NCBI RefSeq assembly: GCF_015191005.1 | Contig: NZ_CP040442.1 | Coordinates: 3,286,001 to 3,350,000 of the forward strand | Length of the DNA stretch: 64,000 bases | Direction: 5' to 3' | From: Kaistella flava (ex Peng et al. 2021) | GTDB taxonomy: Bacteria > Bacteroidota > Bacteroidia > Flavobacteriales > Weeksellaceae | Shown: positions 40,089 through 43,107 of the stretch, piece by piece | Position numbering within the stretch: position 1 is the first letter of the stretch | Layout: every line of letters starts with the position of its first letter | Made by a program: the position numbers and the translations under genes | The notes under the pieces: model-generated | What the model saw: only the letters and a program-made list of their open reading frames with translations | What the model was told of the DNA's origin: nothing | Databases searched by the model: none

Positions 40089-40472
40089 ATGAAAGATTAT
40101 AAACCCAAAAATTATAATTCGCTTTCGGCTTATCTGATTGTAGATGATGCAGACGAACTTGCAACACAGCTCAAAAGTATTTTTAATGCTGAGCAGTTGC
40201 GCAGAATTGAACACGAAGGAAGAGTGCAACATCTTGAACTCAAAATTGATGATACGGTTTTGATGATGAGCAACAGTGTTCCGGGTTATCCGGCGCAGAA
40301 AGTGATGCTTCATTGTTATGTTCCGAATGTGTTTGAGACTTTTGAAAAAGCTTTAGCGAATGGTGCTGAGAAAATTGAGGAACCCAATCAACGTGAGGAT
40401 GATGATGATATTCGGGGCGCTTTTTGTGATTTGGCTGGAAATTATTGGGCAATTTCTACACAGAAAGACTGA
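40089..40472 (+). CDS. VOC-family (glyoxalase-like) protein
   Basis: 127 residues with the beta-alpha-beta-beta-beta pattern of the vicinal oxygen chelate fold: SAYLIVDDADELATQLKSIF, VQHLELKIDDTVLMMSNSVP, HCYVPNVFETFEKALANGAE and the final IRGAFCDLAGNYWAISTQ. It resembles the PhnB-like/DUF1428-like group. Metal ligands and substrate are uncertain. It is a single gene just before the structured repeat carrying the IS110 element. Confidence 0.85.
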   Translation: MKDYKPKNYNSLSAYLIVDDADELATQLKSIFNAEQLRRIEHEGRVQHLELKIDDTVLMMSNSVPGYPAQKVMLHCYVPNVFETFEKALANGAEKIEEPNQREDDDDIRGAFCDLAGNYWAISTQKD

Positions 40473-40506
40473 ATCATTTCTCGGAAATACAAACCACCTG
40501 AACTTC

Positions 40507-40587
40507 TAGCCCGGATCGAAGAGGAAATCCTGTTATTGCGAAAAAAAACAAATATTTCAACGGATTGCTTCGCTTCACTCGCAATGA
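40507..40587 (+). repeat. Structured repeat copy C, left part (interrupted by IS110)
   Basis: Left arm TAGCCCGGATCGAAGAGGAA continues into ATCC, then an internal hairpin (TTATTGCGA, 40533-40541, pairs with TCGCAATGA, 40579-40587). The element stops abruptly at the IS boundary. Its right part is at 41809-41834, and joining the two gives one continuous element with the same arms as copy B. Confidence 0.7.
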
Positions 40588-40609
40588 TCTGTGTTAATAT
40601 GCAAGTATT

Positions 40610-41568
40610 TTAACAATAATTTACTTCATATTTTTCTTGTTTCTTTCCGATTTCAAATGCGAGTTTTAATAACTTATTTGCGATAGCGATTTTCACAACA
40701 CGCTCTGGTTTTCCTTTTGCAATTAATCTTTCATACATGTCTTTGCACGATTTATTCCACCTTTTTGCAGACCAGCTACACATGTATAAAAGTTTCCTTA
40801 TTTGAGATTTACCCATTTTGCAAATTGAACCTTTTCCTCGCACGCTACTTCCACTTTGATAAATTCTGGGACTAAAACCAACAAATGCAATGAGTTGTTT
40901 ATAGTTTTCAAATTTCTCAAAATTGTTGGTTGTAGCAATGAGCATTGCAGCAGTTTTCATACCTATTCCTGGAATTGAAGTTAAACATTCTACGCTTTTT
41001 GCATAGTTTGCTTTTGCCAATTTTTCGATCAATAATTCCAATTTTTCAATGCTTTTCTTAAGATTTTTTACAGAATTTATCATCTCATTTTCCAAGGTTT
41101 TATCCAATAAACCACTGCTTGTAAAAGCTTCTAATTGATTATTACTTTGGTTTATCTGTTTTTGAAGCAGTTGAACACGCGTAAATATTGCCGCATTTTT
41201 GATACAACTTCGCTATCTGGAACCCATAATTTTAGATCTTCTGCATTCTTTTGTGCATATTCCGATATGATTCTTGAATCTGCTTTGTCTGTCTTTGCTC
41301 GTTTTAATTTTGATTGTGAGTAGCGTTTTATTACCAAAGGGTTTTCTACCACAACTTTTACATCCATACTGAAAAGAAAATCTGCCAGTGGAAGATAATA
41401 ACTTCCCGAAGCCTCCATCACAACCAAATCTTCTTTACCAATTAGCTTTAAAAGTTTTTTAAAACCAACTTTACCATTCTCTAAAACCACATGTTTCCAA
41501 TCTGCGTTTTCTAAAAAACTTACATCAAAAACTTGCTTACTAATGTCAATTCCTATAAATTTACACAT
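40610..41568 (-). pseudogene. IS110 transposase, frameshifted (DEDD recombinase)
   Basis: The N-terminal RuvC-like half is read from ATG at 41568: FIGIDISKQVFDVSFLEN (first Asp), VMEASGSYYLPLADFLFS (Glu) and RAKTDKADSRIISEYAQ (two Asp). It stops at 41152. The C-terminal half, in the frame one base away, reads from about 41182 (VQLLQKQINQSNNQ) to 40610 and holds SIPGIGMKTAAMLIATT and the catalytic-Ser region YQSGSSVRGKGSICKMGKSQ. The span is 959 nt, one short of 320 codons, so one base is missing near 41175-41183. It is likely inactive unless frameshifting occurs; no slippery heptamer is seen at the break. Confidence 0.9.
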
Positions 41569-41599
41569 AACAATAATTTTTTAAAAGGAAAATACTACT

Positions 41600-41760
41600 G
41601 TAACTTATCTATCCTTAATACAGGCTTTAATGCCTCATGATCTGTCCAAGTTTATGTAGTAGGGGTAAAGTGATTTTCATTGCGAACGGTCTTTAAGACA
41701 AATGACAAGTAATAACCTTTCTCTTTACCCTTTCCTTTTTATTACTACATAAAGTTATTA
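41600..41760 (-). ncRNA. Predicted IS110 bridge RNA
   Basis: The region between the element's left edge and the transposase start folds on the minus strand into a long hairpin: 11 bp (41651-41661 with 41743-41753) and 8 bp (41663-41670 with 41723-41730) enclosing a 52-nt loop. In the loop, 41677-41685 is an exact reverse complement of the target flank at 40579-40587, and 41702-41710 resembles the other flank (ATGACAAGT against ATGACAGAT). Next to it, 41637-41645 (ATGATCTGT) equals the sequence at the element's right edge (40584-40592), with a small AGGC/GCCT hairpin after it. The order target loop then donor loop matches bridge RNAs of IS110 elements. Ends are estimates. Confidence 0.6.
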
Positions 41761-41808
41761 ACATTTAGAGATTTAATCCTATATTATACTTATGCAAACA
41801 TAGGATGA

Positions 41809-41834
41809 CAGATTGCAACGGAGAGCCGGACGTG
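41809..41834 (+). repeat. Structured repeat copy C, right part
   Basis: CAGATTGCAACGGAGAGCCG followed by GACGTG. It matches the right arm of copy B (GATATAGTGGAGAGCGGGAC). It ends 67 nt before the aminotransferase gene. Confidence 0.65.
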
Positions 41835-41901
41835 TTTTTCAAAGGAGCGAAAATCGTTTTGCTCCGAAAAAAATTCTTAATTTTGCAAAAAATATATCAT
41901 C

Positions 41902-43107
41902 ATGCCAAAAATATCTCATAGAGCGCAAAATATGCCCGCATCGCCGGTAAGAAAATTGGTTCCTTTCGCCCTGCAAGCGAAACAAAAAGGAATTAAAGTT
42001 TATCATTTGAATATTGGTCAACCTGATATTGAAACGCCACAAACAGCTTTGGATGCGGTGAAAAACAATGATTTGAAAATCTTTGAATACGCACTTTCTG
42101 AAGGGAATTTAGATTACAGAACGGCGCTGAAAGATTATTATCACACGCTTGGTTTTACGGATCTTACGACCGATAATTTCATGGTGACTAATGGAGGATC
42201 GGAAGCGTTGAATTTTGCTATTTCAACTTTGTGTGATGATGGTGATGAGATTATTATTCCGGAGCCTTATTATGCGAATTATAATGGTTTTGCAAATACT
42301 TTCAATGTGAATGTTGTAGCGGTTTCTTCCACGATTGATACTGGATTTGCATTGCCTCCGATTGAGGATTTTGAGAAAAAAATCACACCAAAAACAAGAG
42401 CGATTTTAATTTGTAATCCTGGGAATCCAACCGGTTATCTTTATACAAGAGAAGAGCTTCAGAAATTGGCCGATATGGCTTTGAGACACGATATCGTGAT
42501 TATTTCTGATGAGGTTTACAGAGAATATGTGTATGATGGAAAGCAGGCAGTATCAATGTTTGATTTCCCTGAAATCGCTGAAAACTGTATTATAATTGAT
42601 TCAGAGTCAAAACGGTACTCAATGTGTGGCGTAAGAATCGGTTGTTTGGTTACGAGATCTAAAAAAATTCATGATGCTGCGATGCTTTTTGCGCAGGCAA
42701 GATTGAGTCCGGTTCTTTTGGGGCAAATTGCAGCGGCGGCAGCTCATCAGAATGATACAGAATATATTTTGAAAGTTCGTGCAGAATATACGCACCGTAG
42801 AAATGTTTTGGTGGATTTATTGAATGGAATTCCGGGCGTGATTTGTCCGAAACCTAAAGGTGCATTCTATTGTGCGGTTGAACTTCCGGTTGATGATACT
42901 GATAAGTTTGCGCAATGGTTGCTTGAAAGTTATTCTCATAACAACGAAACCATTATGGTGGCGCCAATGAGCGGTTTTTACAGCAATCCGGAATTGGGTA
43001 AAAAACAGGTGAGAATTGCTTATGTTTTGAAAGAAGATGATTTAAGAAGGAGTGTGGAGTTATTGAATGACGCACTGCAAAAATATAAGATCGAATTTGG
43101 TCTTTAA
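41902..43107 (+). CDS. Pyridoxal-phosphate-dependent aspartate-type aminotransferase
   Basis: 401 residues, fold type I, class I/II. Markers are HLNIGQPDIETPQTALDAV, FMVTNGGSEALNFAISTL, ILICNPGNPTGYLYTREEL, and the cofactor lysine in IIDSESKRYSMCGVRIGCLV (about 230-249). The final Arg region is KKQVRIAYVL. It probably transaminates aspartate or an aromatic/branched substrate with 2-oxoglutarate; exact specificity cannot be read. A terminator follows at once. Its upstream region now contains the IS110 element, so its promoter may be affected. Confidence 0.9.
   Translation: MPKISHRAQNMPASPVRKLVPFALQAKQKGIKVYHLNIGQPDIETPQTALDAVKNNDLKIFEYALSEGNLDYRTALKDYYHTLGFTDLTTDNFMVTNGGSEALNFAISTLCDDGDEIIIPEPYYANYNGFANTFNVNVVAVSSTIDTGFALPPIEDFEKKITPKTRAILICNPGNPTGYLYTREELQKLADMALRHDIVIISDEVYREYVYDGKQAVSMFDFPEIAENCIIIDSESKRYSMCGVRIGCLVTRSKKIHDAAMLFAQARLSPVLLGQIAAAAAHQNDTEYILKVRAEYTHRRNVLVDLLNGIPGVICPKPKGAFYCAVELPVDDTDKFAQWLLESYSHNNETIMVAPMSGFYSNPELGKKQVRIAYVLKEDDLRRSVELLNDALQKYKIEFGL

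Follow-up and report, generated by a model that had tools for sequence, protein, structure and literature searches.

A predicted bridge RNA gene in an IS110-group insertion sequence of Kaistella flava, with guides that change among relatives together with target and donor DNA

The stretch at 41590..41790 on the minus strand of the window, the 64,000 nucleotides of the Kaistella flava genome analyzed here, very probably encodes the bridge RNA of an insertion sequence of the IS110 group. Across relatives of this element, the loops of the RNA change in step with the insertion sites and with the element's own ends, the fold is kept by compensatory changes, an unoccupied form of the site is found in another genome of the genus, and the transposase is homologous to that of IS621. 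These observations support the interpretation offered by the original prediction, which was made from the letters of a single copy and had proposed a comparison of homologous loops with their flanks as a check; this comparison yielded covariation. Transcription, binding and recombination are inferred.

The element and its insertion site

The element (40584..41808, minus strand) is about 1.22 kb long, and a whole-genome search recovers one copy, that of the window. Read directly from the sequence, its left end lies near 41808 and its right end at 40584, junctions that are common to its relatives; at both (40584-40587 and 41805-41808), a 4-bp TCAT/ATGA belongs to element and target alike. The left end, about 240 bp of non-coding DNA, carries the RNA, and the right end is short (about 26 bp). 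This location of the RNA sets the element apart from the IS1111 group, in which the RNA lies in the right end and long subterminal inverted repeats are found; here, the ends have in common only a short imperfect inverted repeat, AACACAG / CTATGTT.

The transposase is a DEDD recombinase that is split on the minus strand into an N-terminal part (41152..41568, 138 aa, DEDD_Tnp_IS110, Pfam PF01548, E 9e-20), which ends at a frameshift, and a C-terminal part (40610..41107, 165 aa, Transposase_20, PF02371, E 3.7e-25). The two reading frames are continuous in relatives. In L013 (genome G241), which is the same stretch as L042, whose host is Frigoriflavimonas asaccharolytica, and which is 95% identical in DNA to the element of the window over 1254 bases, the frame is unbroken (319 aa); the split is therefore damage and not a family feature, and the copy in the window probably cannot move by itself. 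Among solved structures, a profile of six relatives' transposases matched only two distinct sequences at E up to 0.01, the transposases of IS621 (E 4.7e-49) and ISCro4.

Joined together, the two flanks of the element form a REP-like palindrome. The right target half is one arm of it (40563..40587, GATTGCTTC...CGCAATGA), and the left target half (41805..41816, ATGACAGATTGC) reads TGTCAT on the minus strand. At the orthologous gap before the aminotransferase in L184 (genome G286, same genus), the sequence is GGATTGCTTCACTTTGTTCGCAATAACAGATTG and the element is absent; compared by eye, this gap is the counterpart of the joined flanks but for a single letter in the core region. L177 and L178, in which the same upstream gene adjoins (again by eye), also lack the element at the orthologous spot. 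By this comparison, insertion was scarless, around a short core. The present genome has 5 occurrences of GTCATTGCGA versus 1 of the reversed-pattern control, and as many as 74 were counted in others among 34 genomes; GTCATTCCG is found 30 times in this genome (reversed-pattern control, 9); several of the 34 genomes have no excess of the repeat, and the longer GTCATTGCGAG is absent from this genome. Genome G328 has several copies in inverted pairs, 67-88 bp apart.

Relatives, fold and guides of the RNA

Matches to the C-terminal piece of the transposase are present in 103 of the 320 genomes of the family, and a scan of named genomes with a six-transposase alignment gave 166 relatives, the best 80 of which were kept. 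Hosts among these best 80 of 166 include Chryseobacterium, Epilithonimonas, Faecalibacter, Polaribacter, Flavivirga, Mucilaginibacter and Sphingobacterium, as well as an Ignavibacteriota MAG and more distant hosts; viral contigs held three distant transposase relatives. We loaded 57 of the 80 named loci, leaving out 12 more Mucilaginibacter/Sphingobacterium copies and 11 distant loci, and added six others (L012, which is the window's own copy, L014, L017, L022, L125 and L126). From these 63, ten (L060, L083, L101, L103, L105-L108, L111 and L114) were set aside, which left a table of 53 elements. The table is partly redundant: seven Polaribacter Hel1_85 copies have one RNA, and one RNA is likewise common to L014/L125/L126, to L071/L074 and to L089/L091. 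Right ends were located by the conserved CACAG..CAT, independently of the right target guide, and the adjoining flank was then read.

The left-end alignment revealed one kind of RNA throughout the close relatives, and a covariance model, R1, was built from 40 of them. R1 matches the window copy at G000:C1:3327592-3327748 (41592-41748 of the window) with 154.6 bits, a score reached with that very copy in the training set. The predicted extent of the RNA has its 5' end placed from the position of the candidate promoter and its 3' end after the donor arm. Like the transposase, the RNA is on the minus strand, which corrects the strand of the original prediction. The alignment holds 28 G-U versus 16 A-C cells, which mildly favors the transposase strand; single-strand folding gave a weak signal by which the strand is not decided (161-nt stretch, z -1.36 on the minus and -3.11 on the plus strand; whole left end, z -2.54 on the minus strand).

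RNAalifold, applied to the 40 RNAs, predicted two arms with 23 pairs in all, 19 of which show changes in both partners: the target arm is made of a closing stem, an inner helix and an apical hairpin, and the donor arm of a closing stem and a hairpin. The program recovers unaided the five helices of a closely similar hand-written 23-pair structure, in which 97.2% of cells are paired versus 84.6% in shuffles and at most 55.3% in slid versions, with a covariation score of 0.453 versus 0.207. On the minus strand of the window, the target-binding arm (41663..41731; 15 pairs, 13 with compensatory changes in the 40 RNAs) comprises a closing stem (41731-41724/41670-41663), an inner helix (41718-41715/41675-41672) and the stem of an apical hairpin (41699-41697/41691-41689). 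The donor-binding arm (41593..41661), placed by the alignment fold of relatives, comprises an outer helix (41661-41656/41598-41593), a closing helix (41651-41648/41606-41603) and a hairpin stem (41635-41632/41625-41622). Two internal loops hold the guides to target and donor.

The two-part stem of the original prediction needs revision. Its outer part is a perfect 11-bp pairing (41651-41661/41743-41753) as claimed, and the partner of the 8-bp part at 41663-41670 is 41724-41731 rather than 41723-41730, which closes a loop of 53 nt instead of 52; the inner 8-bp part is conserved in relatives and the outer one is not. As a part of the target arm, the 11-bp stem was found by eye only in L012 and L042 and was rejected, a competing donor-arm helix being conserved in the 40 RNAs: the 3' half of the stem pairs with 41593-41598 to give the outer helix of the donor arm, which averages 6.88 bp in own pairs versus 5.20 in swapped ones (40 RNAs). 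In the 40-RNA alignment, the 19 leader columns, where a 5' stem-loop before the target arm would lie, contained no predicted pairs, and 35 leaders at the median folded no better than shuffles (-2.5 kcal/mol, z 0.3), with exceptions such as L046 (-11.4).

The right target guide, TCGCAATG (41678..41685, minus strand), is complementary to the right flank; direct reading confirms the exact reverse complementarity first noted between 41677-41685 (TCATTGCGA) and 40579-40587 (TCGCAATGA). A full right flank is present in 50 of the 53 elements. Over the 8 nt that adjoin and include the core, guide and flank form Watson-Crick pairs in 33 of these 50 and pair in 41 when G-U is allowed, as is needed in eight (L014, L044, L048, L049, L059, L089, L099 and L102). 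Among 41 unique pairs, 5.22 of the 7 positions outside the core match versus 3.67 with swapped flanks (SD 0.12), and none of 10,000 swaps was as good; with one element per distinct guide (19), the values are 5.21 versus 2.98, and wrong pairs among these 19 match over all 8 positions in 0.9% of cases. Matching flanks accompany each of the guides TCGCAATG, TCCGGAATG, TCTGGATG, TCAGAATG, AAGGAATG, GCTCACCATG, GTTCAGCATG and GTTCTATG. Since the two outermost of ten positions do not covary (0.32 versus 0.34 and 0.37 versus 0.34), the guide is about 8 nt long. The 8-nt pairing is broken even with G-U in nine of the 50 elements: L046, L047, L093, L096, L125, and four of the seven Polaribacter Hel1_85 copies (L053, L054, L055 and L065), which miss one position.

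Such a match would also be seen if the element merely carried a piece of the REP-like palindrome, with no RNA reading the target, and the flank is indeed a REP-like repeat of a kind over-represented in many of the 34 genomes counted. Against this, the matching piece is 8 nt long, occupies a fixed place in a conserved fold and changes between relatives in step with different repeats, and one loop carries the two target pieces on its opposite sides, oriented as has been described for IS621; we consider a carried repeat very unlikely as the source of the match.

The left target guide, TGTCAT (41702..41707, minus strand), is identical to the left flank at 41805-41810, and 41702-41710 (ATGACAAGT) does have ATGACA and a final T in common with 41805-41813 (ATGACAGAT), as originally read. 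GTCAT is kept in nearly all left target guides and left flanks, and for that reason it cannot show covariation. In 38 unique pairs (L058 and L082 left out), the two letters before GTCAT covary weakly (1.13 versus 0.84 of 2, p 0.0004) and letters farther out do not (p 0.87). The same change is present in guide and flank in L067 (GTCGT) and L083 (GCCGT). In this lineage, the left target half is nearly fixed and the right target half is re-aimed.

In the second loop, the left donor guide, ACAGATCAT (41637..41645, minus strand), is identical to the right end of the element, and ATGATCTGT stands, as claimed, at both 41637-41645 and 40584-40592. Within its ACAG-NN-CAT, NN follows the right end in 53 of 53 elements (TT 30, AT 21, AA 2), and other letters differ in some elements, for example L048, L064 and L085. 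The right donor guide, AGGAT (about 41611..41615, minus strand), is the weakest of the four; ATCCT is present at 41611-41615 as reported, and the guide is complementary to the left-end ATCCT. It agrees with the left end in 42 of the 45 elements with the left end read, the exceptions being L047, L067 and L069, and in L048 and L059 it reads AGAAT where the left end has ATTCT. Overall, covariation is clear for the right target and left donor guides, weak for the left target guide, and seen in two elements for the right donor guide.

What a single copy reveals was gauged with 3000 dinucleotide-preserving shuffles of the left end, scored by the longest match including the core. The right target guide (8 nt) was equalled in 1 shuffle, the left donor guide (9 nt) in none, and the left target guide (6 nt) in 82, a marginal result; the right donor guide (3 nt including the core) was equalled in 2908 and is not significant, because the ATCCT match stops short of the core. 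One copy thus suffices to place two guides clearly beyond chance, and the claim of guides readable from one copy stands for the right target and left donor guides and does not clearly extend to the other two.

The inverted repeats might alternatively form only a regulatory hairpin, an attenuator or antisense structure of the transposase message, with guide matches due to chance. The region does belong to the transposase's 5' leader, regulation by small RNAs is described for ISPpu9 in the excerpted text of PMC8450116, and in one copy the left target and right donor matches do not clearly exceed chance. Yet the loop letters covary across relatives with DNA outside the element, for which a leader hairpin has no reason; such a hairpin is therefore refuted as the sole explanation, and we give it hardly any weight beside a bridge RNA.

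Held-out loci, remnants and odd loci

Outside its training set, R1 matched 26 of 26 loci, as well as 19 of 30 more distant ones at E up to 1, its weakest matches being in Acidithiobacillus (L114, E 0.03) and Methylotenera (L107, E 0.12). The 11 distant loci without a match at this threshold are L028, L111 and nine further IS110-family stretches of the genome under study (L002-L008, L010 and L011). These nine lie at G000:C1 850-857 kb and 1232-1273 kb, and both regions adjoin a tyrosine recombinase gene or fragment. On whole genomes, R1 found matches in 18 of the 320 genomes from the family and in 9 of the 395 from the order.

For a held-out test of the right target guide, 36 of 46 aligned R1 matches allowed both the left donor guide and the right end to be read (35 unique, with 27 distinct loops); right ends were found from the left donor guide, and the flank was then compared with the right target guide. 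L083, L101, L105, L107 and L114, set aside from the table of 53, re-entered here; L082, L084 and L096 are in that table and outside the model, and some loops from the same genome differ by few letters. The longest complementary run averaged 6.56 in the 27 distinct loops versus 4.15 with swapped flanks (largest of 2000 swaps, 4.85) and was at least 7 in 16 of them, the best runs being 10 nt in L105 (Neomarinimicrobiota MAG) and 8 nt in L101 (Kangiella MAG), L107 and L114. In L029, L034 and L036, a one-letter guide difference is mirrored by a matching flank letter. Runs were shorter than 7 in 11 of the 27: L139 (right end lost), L096, L026, L032, L033, L155, L168, L162, L165, L169 and L159. L160, with the loop of L154, misses one letter.

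In a sister group (L029, L034, L035, L036 and L037), the right guide reads CCC, then C, G or T, then GAT, with matching flanks. L032 and L033 instead seem to have a long left guide, with CCTTTGCG in the RNA and CTTTGCG in both left flanks.

R1 also found a solitary bridge RNA without a transposase, L139 (G286:C57:80674-80811; also L153). In L139, the left end, the target arm and the left donor guide are fused directly to a right flank, TGCGAGG, which fits the right target guide of that locus. The simplest reading, for this one case, is that the DNA from the left donor guide to the right end identical to it was deleted, which may have come about by slippage or by recombinase action, the two being indistinguishable. 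That such fusions are common was rejected: an exact-pattern search of 320 genomes gave three hits, with L151 and L152 in unrelated sequence and only L153/L139 real.

Other loci are unusual in different ways. L058, at a contig end of Polaribacter marinus MSW13, is immediately preceded, at its left end, by another left end and by part of an RNA that extends as far as the left donor guide, a doubling that may be a tandem rearrangement or an assembly artefact. L142 (G009) and L143 (G272) are decayed bridge RNA stretches with no intact transposase nearby. In G386:C1 (110-138 kb), five copies of one IS110 element (L155, L161, L164, L166 and L168) lie within about 27 kb, all with the attC-like right flank TTTGTTA, and a tyrosine recombinase is about 9 kb away. 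The flanks of L155-L170 resemble integron attC sites. We do not claim an integron location for these loci: the nearby integrase scores 120 of the 265 bits of the curated cut-off and lacks the middle of the profile, and the search was also positive in 14 of 14 control genomes. A search of the open PMC literature found nothing on IS110 in attC of Bacteroidetes.

Proposed mechanism, known systems and meaning

Understood as the action of a bridge RNA, the following course is proposed. In an excised circle, the right and left ends would join and form a promoter, from which the RNA would be made in the transposase direction. The first loop would pair with both target strands, the left target guide reading the TGTCAT edge of the REP-like palindrome and the right target guide its arm, and the second loop would pair with the element's own joined ends. 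The recombinase would swap strands within the short common core (CAT or part of it), and the element would be inserted without duplication.

The candidate junction promoter consists of TATGTTTG (41795..41802, minus strand), a putative -7 box of Bacteroidota type present in 41 of 45 left ends, and TTG (40602..40604, minus strand), a putative -33 box that is 20 nt from the former once the ends are joined. Of the 45 elements with both ends read, 38 have a TTG in the right end at 21 nt from the end of CAT; the seven others are the Polaribacter Hel1_85 copies, which have TAG there. After joining, TTG is exactly 20 nt before the left-end TAT(G/C)TTTG in 36 of 45. TTG at that distance is absent from all integrated left flanks, 40 of the 45 being of sufficient length to judge. 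The Bacteroidota promoter is described as TTTG at -33 and TAnnTTTG at -7 in excerpts of PMC2483708 and PMC7366714, with the -7 box also in the excerpt of PMC9723704; the -33 box could not be found in Flavobacterium johnsoniae RNA-seq data (same excerpt of PMC7366714). Judged from its letters, circularization would build a putative Bacteroidota-type promoter, which may be active. A sigma70 promoter and terminator scan, with 7 promoter-like sites versus 5.0 expected and 0 terminators, was not used.

Bridge RNAs and their natural re-aiming are already known (excerpts of PMC11208160 and PMC11187229). As the excerpted text of PMC11208160 describes it, the bridge RNA of IS621 is alike in many respects: it lies in a long left end, with a target loop followed by a donor loop; in each loop, the left target or left donor is repeated on the 5' side and the right one is complemented on the 3' side; the core is inside the guides, REP elements are targeted, a promoter arises from joined ends, and the transposase is homologous. 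The same excerpt gives IS621 guides of 8-9 on the 5' side and 4-7 on the 3' side, as printed, whereas here the left guide has 5-7 nearly fixed nt and the right one 8 variable nt. IS621 further has a 5' stem-loop before the target arm, where none was recognized here, and a sigma70-like junction promoter, in contrast to the apparent Bacteroidota form in this lineage. The seekRNA of IS110/IS1111 elements (excerpt of PMC11187229) is the same kind of RNA under another name, with natural reprogramming and a promoter at joined ends; the IS110 member tested there is ISEc21, and the excerpt does not mention the present Bacteroidota group. REP-targeting insertion sequences (PMC1525189) likewise enter repetitive extragenic palindromes, but the excerpted text names no RNA, and the hosts in it are Pseudomonas, Sinorhizobium and Neisseria.

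What is new is a member from a Bacteroidota lineage whose left guide is shorter and nearly fixed, whose right guide is longer, and whose junction promoter pattern appears specific to the phylum. In the open PMC literature, we found nothing that joins bridge RNA with Bacteroidota palindromic sequences, and nothing under bridge recombinase with IS110. We tentatively suggest, while thinking it somewhat less probable than its opposite, that this is a half-fixed bridge RNA lineage living on Bacteroidota repeats, with the left guide locked on the GTCAT edge common to many REP-like palindromes and only the right guide re-aimed to their differing arms, and in which the left donor guide DNA acts as a false end, leading to loss of the transposase and leaving solitary target loops such as L139. 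The left donor guide DNA could serve in this way because it equals the right end of the element.

The bridge RNA and half of its address were recognizable from one genome and then confirmable by public relatives alone. Since a search of 40400-42000 against Rfam (E up to 1) gave no match, the model has annotation value. The relatives provide a natural series of single-letter re-aimings, in which the right guide has C, G or A at one place and most elements have the matching flank, and this series is useful for learning mismatch tolerance. Finally, the family offers a compact recombinase (about 319 aa) whose phylum has a promoter code of its own.
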